Shown here piece by piece: positions 21,393-33,497 of a stretch of DNA of 33,497 nucleotides. This DNA comes from Idiomarinaceae bacterium (GTDB lineage Bacteria; Pseudomonadota; Gammaproteobacteria; Enterobacterales; Alteromonadaceae). A model generated the notes under the pieces. The model was not told the DNA's origin. It searched no databases and saw only the letters and a list, made by a program, of their open reading frames with translations. The position numbers and the translations under genes were made by a program. The stretch is taken from contig NYWU01000037.1 in the NCBI GenBank assembly GCA_002685255.1, positions 1-33,497 on the forward strand. The letters are read 5' to 3'. Each line of letters opens with the position of its first letter. Position 1 is the first letter of the stretch.

Positions 21393-23369
21393 ATGAACAC
21401 AGCAAAATTTGTAGGCTACCTACGCTGGTTTAGCGTATGTTTAAGCCTTTTGATGTCACCGTTCAGCTGGGCACAGGGCTCACCTTCCACGGGTTGGTTA
21501 ACGAGTCCCGATCACGACGCGGTCAAGGTCAAACTTGAAGTGACAGGCGAATTTAATCCCGAAACCCGCGTATTACCGGCACTGTTAACGGTGCAGCTTA
21601 AAGATGAATGGAAAACGTACTGGCGAGCACCGGGTGAAGGCGGTATTCCACCGCGTATCGACTTGGCTTCGTCAAAAGGTATTGAACGCATCAAGTGGCA
21701 TTGGCCAACACCGAGTGAGTATTACGTACAATCCATTCGCACAGCCGGCTATAAACACCAAGTCACGTTTCCCCTCGAAATCGTTGTATCTGAAACAACT
21801 GAAAGTGCTCAGTTGGATGCTGTATTCACGTTATCGAGCTGCACGAATATCTGTGTGCTAACCGATTTTCCGCTGCAACTGAATATTGATGTTAACCAAC
21901 TTACGCCAGACAGCGAACAGAGCTTTGCGTTTGCACAAGCAATGAGTCAAGTACCGCAGCCACTCCGCAGCGCGGAGGTGACGCGCGCTGATTACAACGC
22001 CGATGATCAACGACTAACCTTTGAGGTATCACGCGCATCAGGTTGGGATTCACCCCAACTATTCGTGCACAGTGACGATAAACAACTTGATGAAGTGGTT
22101 TTTAAGCTCATCGATCAGCAGATGAGCGAAGATGGGAAGCGTTTAATCGCCCGCTTTAAAGCATCTCATTGGCTCGAGCTACCAGAACTCGTTAACCGAC
22201 GAGTCAGCATCACCGTAAATGACGATCCATTCGGTGCGGCTTATACAACACAACTCGATCGGAGTAAAAGCTCGACGACTAATGAGTCCCTCGACTCTAT
22301 GACTATTTGGGGGGCGCTATTCGCGGCTCTGCTGGGCGGTTTAATTCTCAATATGATGCCCTGCGTCTTACCAGTCCTTGGAATCAAGGTGCAATCTTTG
22401 ATCGCTAACAGCAACGCATCAGCGCGAGAGGTTCGGTATCAGTTTCTCGCCACAGCCATGGGTGTTATCAGCACCTTTATCGTTATTGGCACTCTACTCG
22501 GTCTGTTAAAACTGAGTGGCGTGCGGATCAGTTGGGGAATGCAGTTTCAAAACCCTTGGTTTATCGCAGTGCTGGCGTTCATTACATTGGCTTTTGCTAT
22601 AAATTTGTTCGGGCTTTATCAGATTCGCCTCCCGCAGTGGCTCAATCAATGGGCGCTAAAATCACAGCGTAGTTCCTTATTAGGTCATTTCAGTCAGGGC
22701 GTCTTTGCCACCGTATTAGCAACGCCGTGTACCGCCCCCTTTTTAGGCACAGCGGTGGCGTTCGCGTTGGGCGCGCCCATGTATTTACTACTGCTGATAT
22801 TCTTCGGGCTCGGTGTTGGAATGGCACTGCCTTGGTTGTCCATCGCGGCATTTCCACAAACCCGTAAGTTGTTACCCAAACCCGGGTCGTGGCTGAAATG
22901 GGTGAAGCCGATATTTGGTGCCTTGTTGCTCGCCACAAGCGTCTGGCTATTCACATTGTTAACACCGCATTGGTTAGAGGCATCCAGCGAATCAACTTCA
23001 GCAGAGCAAACCAGCGAACGCCCTTGGCAAACGCTCTCGTTTAAGACGATTCATCAGGCGGTTACGCAAGGAAAAGTCGTATTTGTGGATGTCACAGCAG
23101 ACTGGTGTATTACCTGTAAAGCCAATAAGCTTGGTGTACTTGAGCAAGAGCCGGTATACAGTGCGCTCGCAGCACCGGACCTGATTCGTATGCGCGGTGA
23201 TTGGACTGTGCGAAATGATTATATCACGGACTATCTTCGCGCCTATGGACAGTACGGCGTGCCATACAACCGAGTATACGGACCGGGCGCTCCCGAAGGG
23301 ATTGAGTTGCCCATCATCCTTACCAGCGATGCCGTAATGCAAGCCATCAAGGAAGCCAGAAATGAATAA
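21393..23369 (+). CDS. scsB: ScsB/DsbD-like thiol-disulfide interchange protein
   Basis: 658-residue inner-membrane electron carrier that passes reducing power from cytosolic thioredoxin to periplasmic partners. A signal peptide (SPFSWAQG) is followed by a large N-terminal periplasmic domain with C150 and C154 (SSCTNICVL). The membrane domain (about 303-525) has C323 (MMPCVLPVLG) and C445 (ATPCTAPFLG). The C-terminal thioredoxin-like domain has C571-x2-C574 (DWCITCKANK). All six cysteines of the relay are present. AGGAG is 5 bases before the ATG. It overlaps scsD by 8 bases and is followed by scsC, which fits ScsB rather than housekeeping DsbD. Likely role: keeping ScsC and ScsD reduced under copper or oxidative stress. 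Confidence 0.93.
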   Translation: MNTAKFVGYLRWFSVCLSLLMSPFSWAQGSPSTGWLTSPDHDAVKVKLEVTGEFNPETRVLPALLTVQLKDEWKTYWRAPGEGGIPPRIDLASSKGIERIKWHWPTPSEYYVQSIRTAGYKHQVTFPLEIVVSETTESAQLDAVFTLSSCTNICVLTDFPLQLNIDVNQLTPDSEQSFAFAQAMSQVPQPLRSAEVTRADYNADDQRLTFEVSRASGWDSPQLFVHSDDKQLDEVVFKLIDQQMSEDGKRLIARFKASHWLELPELVNRRVSITVNDDPFGAAYTTQLDRSKSSTTNESLDSMTIWGALFAALLGGLILNMMPCVLPVLGIKVQSLIANSNASAREVRYQFLATAMGVISTFIVIGTLLGLLKLSGVRISWGMQFQNPWFIAVLAFITLAFAINLFGLYQIRLPQWLNQWALKSQRSSLLGHFSQGVFATVLATPCTAPFLGTAVAFALGAPMYLLLLIFFGLGVGMALPWLSIAAFPQTRKLLPKPGSWLKWVKPIFGALLLATSVWLFTLLTPHWLEASSESTSAEQTSERPWQTLSFKTIHQAVTQGKVVFVDVTADWCITCKANKLGVLEQEPVYSALAAPDLIRMRGDWTVRNDYITDYLRAYGQYGVPYNRVYGPGAPEGIELPIILTSDAVMQAIKEARNE

Positions 23370-23862
23370 ATGGGGTCTGAGATTTATTAAATTACTGGGT
23401 TACCTTGTTGTCGCCGCCGCGATCGCCTTCGGCGTCGACTTGTATCGTAACAATAACGTACCCACTACGTTGCCCGACGAATTAACACTCACAAGCCTGG
23501 CTGGCGAACCGCTATCAATAGCTAAGATGAGTGAAGAAGAGCCCGTGCTACTTTATTTCTGGGCGACCTGGTGTCCCGTGTGTCCAACGGTCTCGCCGAC
23601 TGTGGACTGGTTAAGTGACGACTACACCGTTATTTCTGTCGCATTGAGATCGGGACACGACAAAAAGGTTTCCGCTTATTTACAAAGTAACCAACTCGAC
23701 TTCACAACAATTAATGATGATCGTGGTCAGATATCGCGGCTATTTAATGTGGGCGTAACCCCCACCATTTTAATTATTAATAACCATAAAGTGACCAGCG
23801 CCACCAGTGGCTTCACTTCGCCACCGGGGATCCTAGCACGCTTGTGGTTGAGCAAATTTTAG
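23362..23862 (+). CDS. scsD: ScsD-like membrane-anchored thioredoxin/TlpA-like oxidoreductase
   Basis: 166-residue thioredoxin-fold protein held in the inner membrane by an N-terminal segment (about 9-26), with the catalytic domain in the periplasm. The active site is C71-P-V-C74 in FWATWCPVCPTVSPT. The cis-proline loop is visible in VGVTPTILII. The ATG at 23362 lies inside the end of scsB (8-base overlap), indicating translational coupling. ScsD proteins are thought to receive electrons from ScsB. Gene order here is B-D-C, not the B-C-D of enterobacterial loci. Confidence 0.88.
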   Translation: MNKWGLRFIKLLGYLVVAAAIAFGVDLYRNNNVPTTLPDELTLTSLAGEPLSIAKMSEEEPVLLYFWATWCPVCPTVSPTVDWLSDDYTVISVALRSGHDKKVSAYLQSNQLDFTTINDDRGQISRLFNVGVTPTILIINNHKVTSATSGFTSPPGILARLWLSKF

Positions 23863-23887
23863 AATTAACTTTTAAGATAAGGAATTA

Positions 23888-24616
23888 ATGATGTTTAAAC
23901 GAATGACACTCTTTATTGGTGCCGCTTTAATGAGCAATGCGATCAGCGCACAATCACTCACCGATAAACAAGAAACGGATCTGGCACAAATCGAAACCAT
24001 GCTCCGCGATAACCCGCAACTTATTGGAAATATGCGTCAGGGATTAGAAAACTTTCTAGAGGAACAAAAAGCGCAAAAAGCGACCTACCAAGAATATAAG
24101 GACTGGCTTTTTGATACCTCTACACACCCTACTCTAGGCAATATTGATGCCGCGCATTCGATCGTCATTTTTACGGATTATAACTGTCCCTACTGCAAAA
24201 AGCTGGAGCCCAGTTTAGAGCGTTTAATTGAAGAATACCCATCGGTCAATGTCATTAATATCATTGTGCCGCTACGTCAGCGCTCTGTTGATGGTATCAA
24301 CACCAATGCAACTGAGTTTGGGCTGAGTGTTTGGTCGAATGCTTCCGATAGTTACTATGATGTGCATACACTGCTAATGAGCAAATCAGGAATGCATAAC
24401 GCAGATTCACTTCGAGCAATCGCCGAACGCACGGAAACACAAGCGTGGTTGAAAGACCCGCAAGCAAGCAAAGAAACGATTAAGAAGAATTTACAGACGT
24501 TTCAAGCGCTAGGGTTTCGTGGTACTCCTACCATCATGATTGGTGAACAGTGGATACCTGGTTTTATTCAGTATGGTCAGATCGAACAAATTGCCAAGCA
24601 AGAATTCGGTCTATAG
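23888..24616 (+). CDS. scsC: ScsC-like periplasmic DsbA-family disulfide isomerase/reductase
   Basis: 242-residue secreted thioredoxin-fold protein. A signal peptide (cleavage near SAQS, residue 22) precedes a charged helical N-terminal region (24-75), the part that mediates oligomerisation in some ScsC proteins. Then comes the DsbA-type domain with C100-P-Y-C103 (FTDYNCPYCKKLEPSL) and cis-Pro GTPTIMI. Two adjacent ATGs exist (23888 and 23891); AAGGA precedes both. It lies 25 bases after scsD and ends just before a strong terminator, so it closes the operon. Family role: copper tolerance and reshuffling of wrong disulfides. Confidence 0.92.
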   Translation: MMFKRMTLFIGAALMSNAISAQSLTDKQETDLAQIETMLRDNPQLIGNMRQGLENFLEEQKAQKATYQEYKDWLFDTSTHPTLGNIDAAHSIVIFTDYNCPYCKKLEPSLERLIEEYPSVNVINIIVPLRQRSVDGINTNATEFGLSVWSNASDSYYDVHTLLMSKSGMHNADSLRAIAERTETQAWLKDPQASKETIKKNLQTFQALGFRGTPTIMIGEQWIPGFIQYGQIEQIAKQEFGL

Positions 24617-27182: not shown

Positions 27183-27235
27183 GGGCTGTTCAATCTGAGA
27201 AATCAGAGCACTGATTTAATGATGACGAACAGCCC
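27183..27235. terminator. Structured region between convergent sugE and tauE genes
   Basis: Outer arms GGGCTGTTC (27183-27191) and GAACAGCCC (27227-27235) enclose two mutually exclusive small hairpins, TCTGA-GAAA-TCAGA (27194-27207, GNRA-type loop) and AATCAG-AGCA-CTGATT (27201-27216). It covers the tauE stop. There is no T-run. Probably a tail-to-tail transcription end. Confidence 0.42.
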
Positions 27236-27955
27236 CATGCCCACTAAGAATACCGCAAAGCCTTTTTGCAGTTTATCCTTAGCAATCGAGCGGCCGAGTT
27301 TGGCGCCAAACACTGAGCCCAGTACGCCCCCCACTATCATGATACCAATAACAACCCAGTCAAAGGTGATATTTTGGCTCGACATGACAGCGTAATATTT
27401 AAAGAAGCCAACGATCGACTTGATAACAATAATGAGGAGGCTGGTGCCAATAGCAACGGGCATTGATAAACCAGCCAGTAAGACCAATGCAGGTACGATT
27501 AAGAACCCACCGCCAACACCCACAAACCCAGTAATCACGCCAACAGTTAAGCCCTCAAACATGACCTTAGTGTAATTAAGTGTTTGCGTGTTGCCGTTTT
27601 CTGGCGATTTACTGCGCCACATGAACACGGCAGCGACGATCATCAGCAATGAAAACACCAGTAATTGCCAGCGACTGTCCACCAAGGTTCCGAGCCACGC
27701 ACCGCCATATGTACCGATCATGCCAGGAATACCGAATACCCAAAGGTGTTTCCAACTCACAGACTTTCGACGAATGTAAGAAATAGATCCGAAAAGACTA
27801 ATACCTGCGACAATGAGCAACGAAGAAGCGATGGCTAAATCGGCAGGCATATCAACAAGGTACATTAAAACAGGTACGGTTAGGATCGAGCCGCCCGAGC
27901 CGAATAGCCCCAGAGACGCACCGATAATTAACGCACCAATAATCGCAAACAGCAT
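27203..27955 (-). CDS. TauE/SafE family sulfite/sulfonate exporter-like permease
   Basis: 250-residue inner-membrane protein with about eight hydrophobic segments in two related halves, each starting with the glycine-rich family motif (GLFGSGGSILTVPVLMYL and GFVGVGGGFLIVPALVLL). I start at the ATG at 27955, with AGAGG 5 bases upstream; the longer frame to 28012 has no ribosome site. TauE/SafE members move sulfite, sulfonates or other anions. Next to persulfide dioxygenase genes, sulfite export is the natural inference. A terminator separates it from the peroxiredoxin gene, and a dyad-bearing promoter region of its own precedes it. Confidence 0.9.
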   Translation of the reverse strand: MLFAIIGALIIGASLGLFGSGGSILTVPVLMYLVDMPADLAIASSLLIVAGISLFGSISYIRRKSVSWKHLWVFGIPGMIGTYGGAWLGTLVDSRWQLLVFSLLMIVAAVFMWRSKSPENGNTQTLNYTKVMFEGLTVGVITGFVGVGGGFLIVPALVLLAGLSMPVAIGTSLLIIVIKSIVGFFKYYAVMSSQNITFDWVVIGIMIVGGVLGSVFGAKLGRSIAKDKLQKGFAVFLVGMGLFVIIKSVL

Positions 27956-27981
27956 ATGAACCTCTATATTCCCTGATCGAA

Positions 27982-27997
27982 TATGGTTATAACTATA
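27982..27997. promoter_or_regulatory. Candidate operator upstream of tauE
   Basis: TATGGTTATAACTATA: a 16-base dyad with one mismatched pair, perfect core GTTATAAC, 27 bases upstream of the tauE ATG. Its first 11 bases (TATGGTTATAA) recur exactly at 29830-29840 in front of the second dioxygenase gene. Confidence 0.42.
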
Positions 27998-28010
27998 ATA
28001 TATTAAATTC

Positions 28011-28047
28011 AAAAAAAGGAAATAGCCGCACTTAACGCACGGCTATT
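28011..28047 (-). terminator. Terminator after the peroxiredoxin gene
   Basis: On the minus strand AATAGCCG / CGGCTATT arms (28040-28047 and 28021-28028) with an 11-base loop, followed after three bases by a run of seven T. Confidence 0.8.
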
Positions 28048-28058
28048 CTACTATTCTC

Positions 28059-28688
28059 CTATTTTAAATTGGTTAACCGTAAGTATGGGCGCAGCGTTTC
28101 CCATCCTTGCGGAAACTTATTCTTCGCATCATCGTCAGAAACGCTAGGACGAATAATAACCGGTTTACCGACTTCCCAGTCCGCGGGGCAAGCGACTTCT
28201 TGTTTATCTGTCGTTTGCAATGCATCGATAACTCGTAAAATCTCGGCAAAATTGCGCCCTACTGCCATTGGGTATGTCATGGTCAAACGAATTTTCATGT
28301 TTGGATCGATGATAAACACGGAACGTACCGCCGCCGTGTCATCTTCATCCGGGTGGATCATGTCGTACAGTTCAGCGACTTTCTTATCCTTATCTGCGAC
28401 AATTGGAAACTCAAGAACAGTATTCTGCGTCTCATTAACGTCTTTAATCCAACCTAAATGCTCTTCAACAGTGTCAGTTGATAGTCCGAGCGGTTTGACA
28501 TTACGCTTTTCAAATTCTGGCGCTAATTGAGCCGTACGTCCCATCTCGGTGGTACATACTGGCGTATAATCAGCTGGGTGACTGAAAAAGAACGTCCATG
28601 ATCCTTTAGCCCAGTCATGAAAATCGATCGTCCCTTGCGTAGTTTCAATTTTAAAGTTGGGTGCAATATTGCCTATACGTAAACCCAT
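28059..28688 (-). CDS. Prx6-type (1-Cys) peroxiredoxin
   Basis: 209-residue thiol peroxidase. Peroxidatic C45 lies in PADYTPVCTTEMGR. The Prx6-type C-terminal domain is recognisable (DKQEVACPADWEVGKPVIIRPSVSDDDAKNKFPQGWETLRPYLR). The start at 28688 (MGLRIGNIAPNF) matches the family and has AGAAGG 8 bases upstream; the open frame to 28787 would run into the upstream gene. It lies 55 bases after the first persulfide dioxygenase gene and ends in a terminator. Likely role: removal of peroxides, possibly reduction of persulfidated species, during sulfide oxidation. Confidence 0.94.
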   Translation of the reverse strand: MGLRIGNIAPNFKIETTQGTIDFHDWAKGSWTFFFSHPADYTPVCTTEMGRTAQLAPEFEKRNVKPLGLSTDTVEEHLGWIKDVNETQNTVLEFPIVADKDKKVAELYDMIHPDEDDTAAVRSVFIIDPNMKIRLTMTYPMAVGRNFAEILRVIDALQTTDKQEVACPADWEVGKPVIIRPSVSDDDAKNKFPQGWETLRPYLRLTNLK

Positions 28689-28743
28689 GGTAATTACCTT
28701 CTTTGCTATGGTTACAGAAAAGCCATCAGATTCAATGGCATGA

Positions 28744-29640
28744 TTAAAATTTGTTCGCTGGTATCTTGAAGTAATGGTGACCATCATCTTCTTTGAGTGG
28801 CAATTTGCCTGCTCGCAAATTTACTTGGAGTGCGTACAGCATTCTATCTGGTAACGACAAAGTTGCGTCACGAGTGTCGCGAGTGTTGCGAAACTCGTCT
28901 TCAGTGACATGACCCGCCAAATGAACATTACCCTGTTTATGTTGAGCTACTGTTGCCTCCCACTGTGGTTCTCGACCGTCTTTGCCATAATCGTGTCCCA
29001 CAAAAAGACGTGTAGTGTCCGGAAGCTCAAGAATACGTTGCAACGAGTTCCATAAATCGTGAGATGAGCCACCAGGAAAGTCAGCTCGTGAGGTACCACT
29101 GTCCGGGAACATGAATGTATCGTGGACAAATGCACTATCACCAACCACATAAGTAATAGACCCCAGCGTGTGTCCTGGTGACAACCAAACTTTGATGTTT
29201 AATTCACCAATATTGAAACTATCGCCTTCATCAAGTAAATAATCGAAATCTTTTGCTGGATTGAATGCACTCGGTAAGTTGTAGTATTCGGACCAAAGCT
29301 TCGCAATCTCACATGTTTTTTTACCAATGGCATTAGGTACACCTACCTTCTCTTTTAAGTAGTGAGACGCCATTAGATGATCCGCATGTGGGTGAGTATC
29401 TAAAACCCATTCCACAGTTAGTTGATTTTGTTCGACTAACGCTAGAACTTCTTCTGCGCTCGCAAAGCTTGTTCTTGCACTATTAGGGTCGAAGTTCTGA
29501 ACAATGTCGATCAAAGCAGCTTTTCGAGTCACTGGATCTGCCACAATGTATTGCACTGAGCCGGTATCAGCTTCATAGATGCCCCACACATGGGGAGACC
29601 CTTTTCCAGTAGAAGGACTTTTACGAATGATGCTTGTCAT
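28744..29640 (-). CDS. MBL-fold persulfide dioxygenase-like protein (Blh/ETHE1 type), copy 1
   Basis: 298-residue cytosolic metallo-beta-lactamase-fold protein. The metal-site motif is TH83-P-H85-A-D87-H88, with further ligands H157 (SPGHTLGS), D174 and H216 (FVGHDY). GTSRADFPGG resembles the glutathione-contact region of ETHE1. Expected reaction: glutathione persulfide + O2 + H2O to glutathione + sulfite, with one mononuclear iron. The ATG at 29640 has AAAGGAG a few bases upstream. It is followed by the peroxiredoxin gene and is divergent from a paralogous copy. It lacks the fused DUF442 domain found in Blh proteins; that domain is on the SQR protein instead. Confidence 0.9.
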   Translation of the reverse strand: MTSIIRKSPSTGKGSPHVWGIYEADTGSVQYIVADPVTRKAALIDIVQNFDPNSARTSFASAEEVLALVEQNQLTVEWVLDTHPHADHLMASHYLKEKVGVPNAIGKKTCEIAKLWSEYYNLPSAFNPAKDFDYLLDEGDSFNIGELNIKVWLSPGHTLGSITYVVGDSAFVHDTFMFPDSGTSRADFPGGSSHDLWNSLQRILELPDTTRLFVGHDYGKDGREPQWEATVAQHKQGNVHLAGHVTEDEFRNTRDTRDATLSLPDRMLYALQVNLRAGKLPLKEDDGHHYFKIPANKF

Positions 29641-29673
29641 AATGGACTCCTTTAAACACGACTTGATAATTTA

Positions 29674-29689
29674 GTTATAAGCATATAAC
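29674..29689. promoter_or_regulatory. Dyad over the likely promoter of dioxygenase copy 1
   Basis: GTTATA-AGCA-TATAAC, perfect 6-base arms. On the minus strand it covers a -10-like TATGCT that lies 16 bases after TTGCCC (29702-29707), about 35 bases before the gene start. Position fits a repressor site. Confidence 0.45.
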
Positions 29690-29764
29690 AATATGTTTTT
29701 AGGGCAAGTGATTAAACATGATGGTGAGCCGATGAGGTTAATCGATTTTTTGAATCAATGATTA

Positions 29765-29779
29765 AGTTCTAATAGAACT
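29765..29779. promoter_or_regulatory. 15-base perfect palindrome in the divergent dioxygenase region
   Basis: AGTTCTA-A-TAGAACT, symmetric about one base, near the middle of the 239-base gap between the two dioxygenase genes. Placed where an activator or shared regulator could act on both promoters. Confidence 0.42.
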
Positions 29780-29811
29780 CTCATCTATAGCAGATTAGTA
29801 TTTGTAAAAGC

Positions 29812-29843
29812 TTGCGGTAAAAACTACCTTATGGTTATAAGGT
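29812..29843 (+). promoter_or_regulatory. Candidate promoter and operator of the dioxygenase-2/SQR operon
   Basis: TTGCGG (29812-29817), an 18-base spacer and TATAAG (29836-29841). The perfect dyad ACCTTAT-GGTT-ATAAGGT (29826-29843) overlaps the -10 element, the typical place for a repressor. The gene starts 36 bases later behind AAGAGG. Confidence 0.5.
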
Positions 29844-29879
29844 TATTTCGTTTTAGAATATGTTTTTAAGAGGTATACG

Positions 29880-30752
29880 ATGTCCACAATTACACCTAAG
29901 GTTACGGCTTTTTTCGATGAGCCAACCAATACATATAGTTACGTGGTTCAGGACCCTAACTCCTCGCACTGTGTAATTATCGATTCAGTATTAGACTTTG
30001 ACTATGCCGCTGGTCGTACCAACACAGATTCAGCGGACCAAATACTCGATTTTATCAAGAACAAAAACCTTACTGTCGACTTTATTTTAGAAACACATGT
30101 TCATGCGGACCACCTTTCCGCAGCGCCTTACTTAAAAGATCATACTGGCGCTCCGATGGGCATCGGAGAGCACATCAAAACTGTGCAAGATACTTTTGGT
30201 AAAGCATTTAATGAAGGCTCTGAGTTTGAGCGCGACGGTAGCCAGTTTGACCATCTATTTGCTGATGGCGATGTATTTGCTGTTGGAAAACTGCAAGCTA
30301 AAGTGCTCCACACCCCCGGACACACACCGGCATGCTTGACTTATGTAATAGGAGACGCCGCTTTTGTCGGTGACACTCTATTCATGCCAGATTACGGCAC
30401 AGCACGCTGTGACTTCCCCGGTGGAGACGCACGCACACTTTACCGATCCATTCAAAAAGTATTCGCGCTACCAGACGAAACTCGGCTATTTATGTGCCAC
30501 GATTACAAAGCGCCCAACCGAGATGAGTACGCGTATGAGACGACGGTTGCCGATGAGAAAAAACATAACATTCATGTCGGTGGAAGTAAGACCGAAGATG
30601 AATTTGTTGCAATGCGGTCTGAACGAGACAAAACATTAAATATGCCGCGTCTGATACTTCCCTCAGTACAAATTAATATGCGCGCTGGAAAATTCCCGGA
30701 GCCAGAAGATAATGGTCAGAGTTATCTTAAAATTCCACTCAATTTATTTTAA
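29880..30752 (+). CDS. MBL-fold persulfide dioxygenase-like protein (Blh/ETHE1 type), copy 2
   Basis: 290-residue paralogue of the divergent gene, full length and with an intact metal site: TH73-V-H75-A-D77-H78, H147 (TPGHTPACL), D165 and the HDY motif. GTARCDFPGGDARTLYRSIQKVFALPDETRLFMCHDY parallels copy 1 and the ETHE1 family. AAGAGG lies 6 bases before the ATG. The SQR fusion gene begins 14 bases downstream, so sulfide oxidation and persulfide oxidation are made from one transcript. The two copies differ clearly in their middle regions (about 95-130), hinting at different persulfide donors. Confidence 0.91.
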   Translation: MSTITPKVTAFFDEPTNTYSYVVQDPNSSHCVIIDSVLDFDYAAGRTNTDSADQILDFIKNKNLTVDFILETHVHADHLSAAPYLKDHTGAPMGIGEHIKTVQDTFGKAFNEGSEFERDGSQFDHLFADGDVFAVGKLQAKVLHTPGHTPACLTYVIGDAAFVGDTLFMPDYGTARCDFPGGDARTLYRSIQKVFALPDETRLFMCHDYKAPNRDEYAYETTVADEKKHNIHVGGSKTEDEFVAMRSERDKTLNMPRLILPSVQINMRAGKFPEPEDNGQSYLKIPLNLF

Positions 30753-30766
30753 TACGAGAGTAATCT

Positions 30767-32506
30767 ATGGACCTTCGGAAGCTTACTAGCAAATTGACAG
30801 TTTCGCCGCAGATCACTATTGATGATGTCAATGCGTTGGCGTCTGATAATTTCAAAACAATCATATGTAATCGCCCAGATAATGAGAGCGAGGATCAAGC
30901 CAATGCGCAGCAAATTGAAAATGCAGCAGAAGCCCATGGCATGGCTTTTTATTACTTACCCGTTGTGCCTGGTGAAATATCTGATCGGCAAATCAGTCAA
31001 TTTGCAAAAATAATACAAGACTGTGACGGACCAACGCTTGCGTATTGTCGAACGGGAACACGCTCAAGTTCACTTTGGGCGCTTGCAGAATCCGAACATC
31101 AACCAACATCGGAACTATTAGCGACAGCATCTGTAGCAGGCTATGACCTATCGAGTCTAGCGCCGCGCATGCAGGCGCGATCTGCAAACGCAGAGCTCAC
31201 TAAAAAATCTAATGGTCGTCGAACAGCGCATCATAAAGTGGTTGTTGTTGGTGGTGGAGCTGCGGGTTTAGCAGTAACTGCGAGCTTGTTAAAACGCCAA
31301 TCAAACTTAGATATTGCAATTGTTGACTCGGCTACATCTCACTTTTATCAACCCGGCTGGACGCTTGTAGGCGGTGGTGTATTCAAGCCAAAGCAAACTG
31401 AACGTTCGATGGCATCTGTCGTGCCAGCTCGCGCCAAATGGTACCAAAATAATGCCGTAACATTTAAGCCAGAGCATAATCGGCTATTACTCGATAACGA
31501 TGAAGAGCTATCATACGACGTTTTGGTTATCGCAACAGGTTTAAGCCTAAATTGGGAAGCTATTCCTGGTTTATCTGAAACCTTGGGAAAAAACGGTGTG
31601 ACATCTAATTATCGATACGATTTAGCGCCTTATACATGGCAACTAGTTCAGTCGCTAGGCAAAGGAACTGCAATATTCACTCAACCACCTATGCCGATTA
31701 AATGTGCTGGTGCTCCTCAAAAAGCTATGTATTTGTCTTGTGACGAATGGCAGCGTCAAGGGAAGCTAAGTGATATTAACGTTGAGTTTTGCACCGCAGG
31801 TGCCGCGTTATTTGGAGTTTCCGACTATGTTCCGGCGTTGACGAACTATGTTGAAAAGTACGGAATTAAACTTAATTTTAAAAACACTCTCAAGTCAGTC
31901 AACGGTGAGGCAAAAACCGCGCAATTTGTAGTTGTCGACGCAAATGGCACCGGGCGAGAAGTGACTCGTTCTTTTGATATGTTACACGTATGCCCCCCTC
32001 AATGTGCACCTAAAATTATTGCTGATAGCCCCCTATCTGACGATTCAGGGTGGGTTGATGTAAATTCAGAGAGTTTACAGCACAAAACCTACAGCAATGT
32101 TTATGCACTCGGTGACGTTGCGAATACGCCTAATGCAAAAACTGCAGCTGCAGTTCGCAAACAAGCGCCTGTCGTTGCAGAGAATATCGTATCAACATTA
32201 AATGAGGAATCACCTTGCGCTGTTTACGAAGGTTACGGCTCCTGCCCATTAACGGTTGAACGAGGAAAAATCGTATTGGCAGAGTTTGGTTACGGAGGCG
32301 TTTTGCAGCCGACATTTCCATCGTGGCTTATTAATGGCAAACGAGCTACGAGTGCAGCTTGGTTCTTAAAAGAAAAACTATTACCTTGGCTATACTGGGA
32401 AGCGATGTTAAAAGGACGGGAGTGGTTGGCGTCACCTAAACACTCAAAGCCTTCTGAGACGAATAATACGAAACGAGATGTTTGCGACTTTAAAGAGAAG
32501 CCATGA
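30767..32506 (+). CDS. Fusion of DUF442 rhodanese-like domain and type II sulfide:quinone oxidoreductase
   Basis: 579-residue two-domain protein. Residues 1-135 are a DUF442/TIGR01244 domain (SPQITIDDV, FKTIICNRPDNES, LAYCRTGTRSSSLWAL) whose loop C94-RTGT-R99 is CX4R, the loop length of rhodaneses rather than the CX5R of phosphatases. Residues 155-560 are a flavoprotein with FAD site VVVVGGGAAGLAV (158-170), C313 in CAGAPQKAMYLS and C493 in SCPLTV, the two redox cysteines of human SQOR-type (type II) enzymes, and SNVYALGDVANTPNAKTAAAV. The C-terminal part (FLKEKLLPWLYWEAMLKG) would dock on the membrane. Expected reaction: sulfide plus thiol acceptor to persulfide, reducing quinone; the N-terminal domain may pass the sulfane sulfur on. 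Confidence 0.92.
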   Translation: MDLRKLTSKLTVSPQITIDDVNALASDNFKTIICNRPDNESEDQANAQQIENAAEAHGMAFYYLPVVPGEISDRQISQFAKIIQDCDGPTLAYCRTGTRSSSLWALAESEHQPTSELLATASVAGYDLSSLAPRMQARSANAELTKKSNGRRTAHHKVVVVGGGAAGLAVTASLLKRQSNLDIAIVDSATSHFYQPGWTLVGGGVFKPKQTERSMASVVPARAKWYQNNAVTFKPEHNRLLLDNDEELSYDVLVIATGLSLNWEAIPGLSETLGKNGVTSNYRYDLAPYTWQLVQSLGKGTAIFTQPPMPIKCAGAPQKAMYLSCDEWQRQGKLSDINVEFCTAGAALFGVSDYVPALTNYVEKYGIKLNFKNTLKSVNGEAKTAQFVVVDANGTGREVTRSFDMLHVCPPQCAPKIIADSPLSDDSGWVDVNSESLQHKTYSNVYALGDVANTPNAKTAAAVRKQAPVVAENIVSTLNEESPCAVYEGYGSCPLTVERGKIVLAEFGYGGVLQPTFPSWLINGKRATSAAWFLKEKLLPWLYWEAMLKGREWLASPKHSKPSETNNTKRDVCDFKEKP

Positions 32507-32516
32507 CAAGTGAAGT

Positions 32517-32546
32517 AAAGGTGGCTTACTAAGAAGCCACCTTTTT
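32517..32546 (+). terminator. Rho-independent terminator of the dioxygenase-2/SQR operon
   Basis: AAAGGTGGCTT / AAGCCACCTTT arms, 6-base loop and T-run, 11 bases after the SQR stop. Its second arm overlaps the last codons of the converging methyltransferase gene. Confidence 0.9.
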
Positions 32547-33152
32547 AGCAACAACTTGTACCACTGCGGCATCACCTGTATGTCCGGAACCCTCAATCAC
32601 TTTTCGGTTAACTGAGGCTAAATCAACAAACTTAAGTGGTTCTAAATCCTCTTCAAGCTGTTGTTCACTATACATTAATGCCTCATCTTGAGGGCCTCCT
32701 GTTTTTAACTGAAGTTGTTCTTTACGATAAAACTCGCCAATAAATATACCTTCGTTTGTAAGTGCAGGCGGTATTTTATTTAGTACTGACTTCCGCATAT
32801 CAGGAGATAAATGCATAAAGATCGCAACAATGGCATCCCATTGCTTTACACCGAAGTCGTACTCAGATAAATCCGCAAGTTTCCAGTCGACCGAAACACC
32901 TCGCTCGTCAGCCAGTTTCTTTCCTTTAGCTAATGCTACCGATGAGATATCGATCGCCGTTACTCTAAGTCCACACTCAGCCAGATATACTGCGTTACGC
33001 CCTTCACCTTCAGCTAGACATAAAACCTGACTGCCGGGTTTAAGAACATCGTTCTTAGGCGGCAAAATATATTTGAGGAAGTCATTAGGTTGTTTCCCAT
33101 ACAAATATCTTTCATCAGAATAGCGGTCGTTCCAAAAATTCTTACTTTCCAA
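32529..33152 (-). CDS. Class I SAM-dependent methyltransferase (TehB/thiol-methyltransferase-like)
   Basis: 207-residue cytosolic methyltransferase. The N-terminal FWNDRYSDERYLYGKQPNDFL and the SAM-binding motif I VLCLAEGEGRNAVYLAECG (43-61), followed by VTAIDISSVAL (motif II) and FGVKQWDAIVAIFMHLSP, resemble TehB-type and related enzymes that methylate soft nucleophiles such as tellurite, selenite or thiols. The start is a TTG at 33152 with a GAGGAG/AAAGG ribosome site. It converges on the SQR operon. S-methylation of sulfide or thiols would fit the neighbourhood but is inference. Confidence 0.87.
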   Translation of the reverse strand: MESKNFWNDRYSDERYLYGKQPNDFLKYILPPKNDVLKPGSQVLCLAEGEGRNAVYLAECGLRVTAIDISSVALAKGKKLADERGVSVDWKLADLSEYDFGVKQWDAIVAIFMHLSPDMRKSVLNKIPPALTNEGIFIGEFYRKEQLQLKTGGPQDEALMYSEQQLEEDLEPLKFVDLASVNRKVIEGSGHTGDAAVVQVVAKKVAS

Positions 33153-33206: not shown

Positions 33207-33497
33207 TTAATGATAACCCTGATCGGCTTTTACTTTGCCGCGAAACACCCAGTATGTCCAAGCGGTGTAAACAAGCACAATGGGAATTACGAACAGCAAA
33301 CCTAACAGCAGGAATAGCTGTGACTCGTGAGCAGATGCTGCTTGACTTAACGTATAGTTAGGCGGCACAACATAAGGCCACTTACTCGCCAGCAGACCTA
33401 AGTAAGTAAAGATAAACATCCCCATGGTGGCGATAAAGGGCGTACCCTCACGCTTCGCTTGAATAGAACGGTAAATCCAAAACGCACAGGCCAACGC
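33207..33497 (-). CDS. Cytochrome bd-type quinol oxidase subunit II, C-terminal part (5' end outside window)
   Basis: The last 96 or so residues of a CydB/CioB-type integral membrane subunit; the gene enters from the right edge. Visible parts are a transmembrane helix ending GLLASKWPYVVPPNYTLSQAASAHESQ and a final helix LLLGLLFVIPIVLVYTAWTYWVFRGKV, both typical of the family. The phrase YPYVVPP-like with TYWVFRGKV leans to the cyanide-insensitive (Cio) subgroup. No CydX-like small gene fits in the 54 bases downstream. With subunit I it would oxidise quinol, and bd oxidases are known to tolerate sulfide. Confidence 0.9.
   Translation of the reverse strand, partial: ALACAFWIYRSIQAKREGTPFIATMGMFIFTYLGLLASKWPYVVPPNYTLSQAASAHESQLFLLLGLLFVIPIVLVYTAWTYWVFRGKVKADQGYH

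Follow-up and report, generated by a model that had tools for sequence, protein, structure and literature searches.

A DUF442-sulfide:quinone oxidoreductase fusion and two stand-alone dioxygenases in a probable sulfide-detoxification island of an Idiomarinaceae bacterium

Introduction

Blh, a protein of the bigR operon in Xylella and Agrobacterium, is described as a fusion of a DUF442 domain to an ETHE1-type dioxygenase (PMC5823870). A 33,497-nucleotide stretch of DNA from an Idiomarinaceae bacterium, analyzed here as a whole and called the window, encodes a different arrangement, in which DUF442 is joined to a sulfide:quinone oxidoreductase (SQR) and the dioxygenases are separate proteins. 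This locus raises the question of what such an island does and how sulfur would pass through it. The original prediction had proposed a channel from SQR through a DUF442 cysteine to a dioxygenase. Our analyses point elsewhere: this is very probably a sulfide-detoxification island of the known kind that combines SQR, persulfide dioxygenase (PDO) and rhodanese functions.

Results

A single protein combines DUF442 and SQR domains

The gene at positions 30767–32506 (forward strand) encodes a 579-residue protein whose ORF, profile matches, structure-sequence match and predicted model place DUF442 and SQR domains in one open frame. The rhodanese-like DUF442 domain, with its C94-RTGTR loop, spans about residues 1–140 (PF04273, 5.4e-30, residues 2–108; TIGR01244, 142.8 bits against a cut-off of 85.85 bits) and is followed by a linker at about residues 143–152. 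The PF07992 flavoprotein domain lies C-terminal to DUF442, and residues 155–551 match human mitochondrial SQOR (6OI5) with 314.8 bits. Cysteines stand at positions 34, 94, 313 and 493 of the translation. C313 and C493 align with SQOR cysteines that we take to be the catalytic pair, so that the protein combines full-length likeness to human SQOR with the two cysteines of SQOR-like enzymes, and on these two features we call it type II. The human enzyme is alike in its SQR domain but lacks DUF442, and the mammalian sulfurtransferase is a protein separate from SQOR. The fusion and its cysteines 94, 313 and 493 had been read correctly in the original prediction, and its DUF442, SQR and dioxygenase assignments all held in domain searches.

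In the predicted model both domains are well folded, the linker is of low confidence (residues 143–150) and pTM is modest (0.67), so that the model gives no indication of a fixed interface between the domains. Cysteine 409 was considered as a fusion-specific relay residue and dropped, despite its presence in 79 of the 80 loci surveyed below. The peptide FDMLHVCP had served as a search pattern, biasing that sample at this position, and fusions found by other routes vary there (V in locus L118, T in L120 and L139, A in L009, and C in L138 and L119).

Two divergent dioxygenases and their neighbors

PDOa (29880–30752, forward strand) is the first gene of a pair with the fusion, from which it is separated by 14 bp, while PDOb (28744–29640, reverse strand) diverges from it. 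Both stand alone, as predicted. NF040641, the Blh model, requires DUF442 and an ETHE1-like domain in one protein and more than 625 bits; PDOa and PDOb match its dioxygenase part with 415.3 and 413.1 bits and the fusion scores 88.3 bits. None of these three proteins is thus of the Blh type, in agreement with the contrast originally drawn.

PDB matches of both dioxygenases include 9G8T, 4EFZ and 4YSK, named there as (metallo-)beta-lactamases, of which some are presumably persulfide dioxygenases. Human ETHE1 (4CHL), named persulfide dioxygenase, scores 75.9 bits with PDOa and 49.1 bits with PDOb. The HxHADH and PGHT motifs and the Asp of (G/H)DT are kept in PDOb, and the metal-ligand motifs of PDOa are identical in type. 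Judged by sequence, both proteins appear to possess the MBL fold and the HxHxDH, PGH and Asp ligands of ETHE1-like enzymes, with the ligands assigned by the ETHE1 motifs. The two are 43% identical, and PDOb falls in a clade apart from PDOa.

A peroxiredoxin and a TauE exporter complete the island as anticipated. The 1-Cys (Prx6-type) peroxiredoxin (28059–28688, reverse strand; PF00578 and PF10417) most likely starts at 28688, because an alternative start at 28787 would overlap the dioxygenase gene. The TauE/SafE-family exporter (27203–27955, reverse strand; PF01925, 3e-52) most likely begins with the ATG at 27955, a start corrected from the sequence. At the other end, the island may reach the window edge and include a cydB-like gene for subunit II of a bd-type quinol oxidase (33207–33497, reverse strand), of which the contig end leaves the C-terminal part. 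Its product is 44–51% identical to annotated CydB of loci L118, L119 and L120, and a bd oxidase is a possible electron sink for the island. We left out the SAM methyltransferase at 32529–33152: it matched only L031 and L058 among the 80 loci and, at E 1e-4, had no match in L118, a cluster with an annotated class I methyltransferase.

The fusion is widespread and has a characterized member

Among the best 80 named relatives of the fusion, 79 are single-frame DUF442-SQR proteins; at the remaining locus (L099) a stop separates the two parts. The loop cysteine, C313 and C493 are kept in all 80. Just ahead of the fusion, 67 of these 80 loci carry a dioxygenase gene, which gives the co-occurrence frequency that the original prediction had left to a survey. 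Seven loci have a fusion and no dioxygenase match above 150 bits, though their flanks are not notably short. We also inspected 21 additional type II SQR loci, and 19 of them lack DUF442 in the frame. At five of six named Idiomarina loci a dioxygenase-peroxiredoxin-TauE arm is present; the sixth, L042, retains the peroxiredoxin and TauE genes without an intact PDOb. On three plasmids, relatives of the fusion are accompanied by cydAB, a dioxygenase and a TauE-like gene, the last recognized in L119 by similarity. A peroxiredoxin and ArsR are also present in two of these clusters, and a sigma-54 regulator in one.

A fusion beside a dioxygenase gene is therefore a sulfide module common in proteobacteria, and one member has been characterized. 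CpSQR (AAZ62946.1) of Cupriavidus pinatubonensis JMP134 is a DUF442-SQR fusion whose DUF442 domain was purified and mutagenized; it is reported to make thiosulfate from glutathione persulfide (GSSH) and sulfite, with C94 and R99 essential (PMC6441731, PMC8533005). As far as the published loop and residue numbers allow comparison, the window protein shares its domain order, C34/C94 and CRTGTR loop with C94 and R99. With this protein in print and the gene pair common, the novelty implied for the fusion does not survive.

Other systems resemble the island in part. C. pinatubonensis likewise has two dioxygenases (PDO1 and PDO2), but is credited with a complete Sox system (PMC9959259), whereas a profile search of the window genome, with SoxB as the oxidase covered, gave no SoxB over cut-off. 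In Acinetobacter baumannii, which also has two PDOs, FisR is described as controlling SQR, PDO1 and TauE, and BigR a second dioxygenase, PDO2, in a separate operon (PMC7315123); PDOb of the window is divergent instead. The Acinetobacter junii plasmid locus L118 shares a PDO, DUF442-SQR fusion, TauE and cydAB with the window, yet its PDO is of a distant type (31% to PDOa). Blh, as described, has the same two domain families, combines sulfur transfer with persulfide oxidation and is accompanied by a TauE-related transporter (PMC5823870).

Regulation of the island

The PDOb/PDOa intergenic region (29641–29879), aligned over eight Idiomarina sequences including the window, contains a conserved perfect palindrome, GTTATA-AGCA-TATAAC (29674–29689), that is a candidate operator. 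A weak second copy near the PDOa start (29834–29849, forward strand; two mismatches) may be due to chance; the pattern has three matches in the window against 1.75 expected, and three were reached in 26 of 100 shuffles. A related sequence, GTTATAACCATATTC, was seen by eye upstream of tauE (27979–27993, reverse strand). Genome-wide, allowing up to one mismatch, the palindrome shows no enrichment (seven sites against 14 for the reversed control). The sole other perfect copy (C38:26878) precedes, by eye, a cysteine-desulfurase-like gene rather than a regulator, and the palindrome was abandoned as a route to the regulator. A cysteine desulfurase would be another source of persulfide.

None of seven ORFs tested between 26848 and 33152 matched a regulator above curated cut-offs, and the window locus lacks the adjacent sigma-54 activator gene of FisR-type operons, which the L118 cluster has. 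The L118 regulator has seven matches in the window genome, mostly to its residues 18–270; we take these for the common sigma-54 activator domain, which makes them uninformative about a FisR homologue. A BigR-like two-Cys ArsR gene is present in the genome, unlinked to the island (G000:C25). Idiomarina may conceivably have a two-armed regulon, in which the unlinked BigR-like ArsR repressor would act through the shared intergenic palindrome on a PDOa-fusion arm and a PDOb-peroxiredoxin-TauE arm, with PDOb specialized for a persulfide other than that of PDOa, though we consider this rather unlikely.

Discussion

The likeliest role of the island is detoxification of sulfide to sulfite and thiosulfate. 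By analogy with the characterized C. pinatubonensis protein, from which we infer the chemistry, the SQR domain would oxidize sulfide at the membrane, with quinone as the acceptor of electrons and a small thiol, probably glutathione, as the acceptor of sulfane sulfur. PDOa, and presumably PDOb, would convert glutathione persulfide to sulfite, and DUF442, through C94, would form thiosulfate by moving sulfane sulfur between this persulfide and sulfite. TauE would export sulfite or thiosulfate; its role and those of PDOb and the peroxiredoxin are likewise inferred. Thiosulfate is a likely product because this is the activity published for the CpSQR DUF442, and detoxification fits better than Sox lithotrophy given the SoxB result. 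Since the Blh DUF442 is reported to run also in reverse, from thiosulfate to glutathione (PMC5823870), the net direction in the island is not fixed.

The channel originally envisaged, in which C94 of DUF442 would take sulfur straight from the SQR cysteines and hand it to a dioxygenase for release as sulfite, draws on the near-universal fusion and the frequent upstream dioxygenase among the 80 loci. We nevertheless judge it very improbable: the low-confidence linker and modest pTM, the split proteins of L099 and the many SQR loci without in-frame DUF442 all argue against it, the published activity of the CpSQR domain yields thiosulfate, and SQR-bound sulfur is reported to pass to free glutathione spontaneously (PMC9959259). 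Hardly credible is the suggestion, contained in the RefSeq name of relatives (bifunctional protein tyrosine phosphatase family protein/NAD(P)/FAD-dependent oxidoreductase) and in the phosphatase-like label that Pfam gives PF04273, that DUF442 of the fusion is a tyrosine phosphatase, as the domain scores above the cut-off of TIGR01244, a family named for sulfur transferases, the CRTGTR loop is that of CpSQR and rhodanese activity is reported for the DUF442 domains of CpSQR and Blh (PMC6441731, PMC8533005, PMC5823870).

A division of labor between the dioxygenases is a refinement compatible with detoxification, and one we hold as a tentative possibility. PDOa would act on the glutathione persulfide that arises from SQR, and PDOb, together with the peroxiredoxin, on another persulfide or polysulfide source as a backup, like A. 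baumannii PDO2. The separate clade of PDOb and its 43% identity to PDOa, its association with peroxiredoxin and tauE in Idiomarina and the BigR-controlled second PDO described for A. baumannii (PMC7315123) are consistent with this; the matching metal-ligand motifs, and the persistence of peroxiredoxin and TauE in L042 where PDOb is not intact, speak against it.

The DUF442-SQR design is published and widespread, and the find in this window is largely ordinary. Annotation would benefit nonetheless, because RefSeq calls such proteins tyrosine phosphatases; one relative already bears the name "DUF442/Sulfide:quinone oxidoreductase" in GenBank. How the paired paralogous dioxygenases of Idiomarina might divide the labor is a modest question, and one that can be tested.

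A DUF442-SQR fusion flanked by two dioxygenase genes

The contig under study (C33) is part of a 2.77 Mb genome and is taken to be from Idiomarina because its fusion protein is 96% identical to that of the closest named relative in a protein scan of species genomes, Idiomarina sp. MD25a. Domain profile searches identify this 579-residue DUF442-SQR fusion at 30767-32506 on the forward strand. The DUF442 domain (PF04273, 5.4e-30; TIGR01244, 142.8 bits, cut-off 85.85) is followed in the same ORF by a C-terminal flavoprotein domain, and the match to human mitochondrial SQOR (6OI5) spans residues 155-551 with 314.8 bits. The protein contains cysteines at positions 34, 94, 313 and 493; C94 starts a CRTGTR loop, and C313 and C493 align opposite the human KCAGAP and SCPL motifs, respectively.

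PDOa (29880-30752), a persulfide dioxygenase-like gene, lies immediately 5' of the fusion and on the same strand. Three genes run divergently from PDOa: a second dioxygenase-like gene, PDOb (28744-29640), and two identified by domain matches, which code for a 1-Cys peroxiredoxin (28059-28688) and for an exporter of the TauE family (27203-27955). Both PDO ORFs score against the dioxygenase portion of NF040641 (Blh, a DUF442-ETHE1-type fusion; 415.3 bits for PDOa and 413.1 bits for PDOb) and match PDB entries 9G8T, 4EFZ and 4YSK, with a weaker match to ETHE1. Both retain the metal-ligand motifs of ETHE1. The residue preceding the conserved Asp differs between the two (FVGDT in PDOa, FVHDT in PDOb). 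ORF and domain searches thus confirm the original prediction of a DUF442-SQR fusion accompanied by two separate, divergent dioxygenase genes, a peroxiredoxin and TauE. On the 5' side of the island, an ORF run (21393-24616) appears by eye to encode thiol-disulfide proteins of the DsbD-like, thioredoxin-like and DsbA-like types.

The DUF442-SQR architecture is not new, and a protein of this kind, the Cupriavidus pinatubonensis JMP134 SQR (CpSQR), has already been characterized, with Xin et al. 2016 (Environ. Microbiol.) reportedly the original study. CpSQR (AAZ62946.1) includes a DUF442 domain with C34 and C94, of which only C94 is conserved and essential, and this domain catalyzes the conversion of GSSH and sulfite to thiosulfate (PMC6441731). 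Its loop is given as CRTGTR, with R99 required (PMC8533005). The Idiomarina fusion has an identical CRTGTR loop and C34/C94 numbering, a likeness judged from these published features. The architecture is also on public record, since AFSD01000008.1 is annotated 'DUF442/Sulfide:quinone oxidoreductase' and RefSeq names relatives 'bifunctional protein tyrosine phosphatase family protein/NAD(P)/FAD-dependent oxidoreductase'. Our literature search retrieved no paper joining Idiomarina with sulfide, SQR and PDO.

A proposed route for sulfide oxidation

In the best-supported scheme, SQR would oxidize sulfide and pass the sulfane sulfur to glutathione, the dioxygenases would produce sulfite, DUF442 would interconvert GSSH, sulfite and thiosulfate, and the products would then be exported. 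In a published description of the C. pinatubonensis pathway, sulfane sulfur moves from SQR to glutathione spontaneously (PMC9959259). The Blh DUF442 can also take sulfur from thiosulfate and deliver it to GSH for use by the dioxygenase (PMC5823870), so the direction of the DUF442 reaction depends on conditions. The original prediction had proposed a channel from SQR to C94 of DUF442 and on to the dioxygenase and sulfite, for which a fixed domain geometry is expected. An AlphaFold2 model of the fusion, built from 35 aligned sequences, has mostly high confidence within each domain, pLDDT <50 at residues 143-150 and a pTM of 0.67, and does not support a fixed interface. A transient DUF442-SQR interface would be compatible with the model. 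The original interpretation as a whole is partly supported.

The reverse-strand ORF at the contig edge (33207-33497) resembles annotated cydB and represents the terminal part of a cydB-like bd quinol oxidase gene. A similar stretch occurs in 19 of the 80 best loci out of 222 relatives of the fusion (six Idiomarina, one, L046, weak). Plasmids of Acinetobacter junii (L118), Agrobacterium tumefaciens F2 and Sphingomonas naphthae carry the fusion beside dioxygenase and cytochrome bd oxidase genes, and the contig-edge ORF is 44-51% identical to cydB of the three plasmid loci (L118, L119, L120); TauE is annotated in L118 and L120, and L119 has a similar gene. A quinol oxidase close to SQR makes sense as a possible electron sink. 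A profile search of the genome found no SoxB over the family cut-off (best 61.1 versus 550 bits).

The divergent arm in Idiomarina

The peroxiredoxin and TauE lie upstream in divergent orientation at each of the six named Idiomarina loci that carry the fusion (L031, L032, L033, L038, L042 and L085), and PDOb is present at five of them. The exception is L042 (Idiomarina seosinensis), which by eye seems to retain just the two ends of a PDOb gene in the interval from the peroxiredoxin to PDOa, as if its middle had been deleted. PDOb forms a clade separate from PDOa, and its closest relatives in other genera are those of L090 (Oceaniglobus) and L109 (Jannaschia), roughly 2-3 kb past the end of the fusion gene, followed by L100 and L145.

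A conserved palindrome and a candidate regulator

A 16-bp palindrome, GTTATAAGCATATAAC (29674-29689; pattern GTTATA-N4-TATAAC), lies on the upstream side of PDOb and is kept in an alignment of eight Idiomarina intergenic sequences, including this one, with a single substitution (in L038); L042 carries it too. Weaker copies occur near the PDOa start (29834-29849) and before tauE (27979-27993). Support comes from conservation alone, because the palindrome is not enriched genome-wide (7 sites versus 14 for the reversed control). The sole other perfect copy in the genome (L122, G000:C38:26878-26893) precedes a gene reading by eye as cysteine-desulfurase-like.

No regulator gene lies next to the island. 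A profile search found four HTH_5 (ArsR) matches in the genome, one of which (L114) lies in a frame that looks by eye like a response regulator. A further match, L111 (G000:C25:129369-129503), is an ArsR-type gene that is unlinked to the island, encodes two cysteines and resembles BigR/YgaV; the cysteine pair is positioned as in BigR/SqrR/YgaV. L111 relatives flank the fusion in 15 of the best 80 of 222 loci, none from Idiomarina; two plasmid loci, L119 and L120, have them as well. The L111 product could control the island.

Distribution of the fusion

A scan of 84,980 species genomes with the fusion protein gave 222 relatives; the analysis used the best 80, a sample that therefore leans to close relatives. 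Among these 80, the protein is a fusion in 79; a single frame is stop-free over nearly the whole query in 70, in nine the sole stop falls close to the C-terminus (aligned position 562-570), and L099 is the only locus with a split frame (at position 146). All 80 keep C313, C493 and the loop cysteine, and 58 of the 80 have C34. In 67 of the 80, a dioxygenase gene (counted at >150 bits) precedes the fusion on the same strand at a distance of up to 1.2 kb, and in 63 it is no more than 250 bp away. Among the remaining 13, four have the dioxygenase at another place in the locus (L057, L088, L090, L109) and two have a short upstream flank (L081, L101); the examined flanks of the other seven contain no match >150 bits (L039, L063, L070, L077, L094, L106, L108).

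A plasmid collection gave 315 records with a match, which in 57 covers at least 80% of the query. In a class sample, 87 of 369 genomes match the fusion at 1e-20; among the matches listed, most cover the SQR or DUF442 part alone, and three single matches besides our contig span both parts, one with two internal stops. A closer look at 20 class-sample SQR loci and L011 found a fused frame in two (L138, L139) and an unfused one in 19. In the tree, type II SQRs that carry DUF442 are interspersed with ones that lack it (L138, L139, L135, L136), and this intermixing suggests that DUF442 may have been lost or gained repeatedly among these enzymes. Within the genus, the fusion is found in 8 of 18 other genomes and thus constitutes an accessory island.
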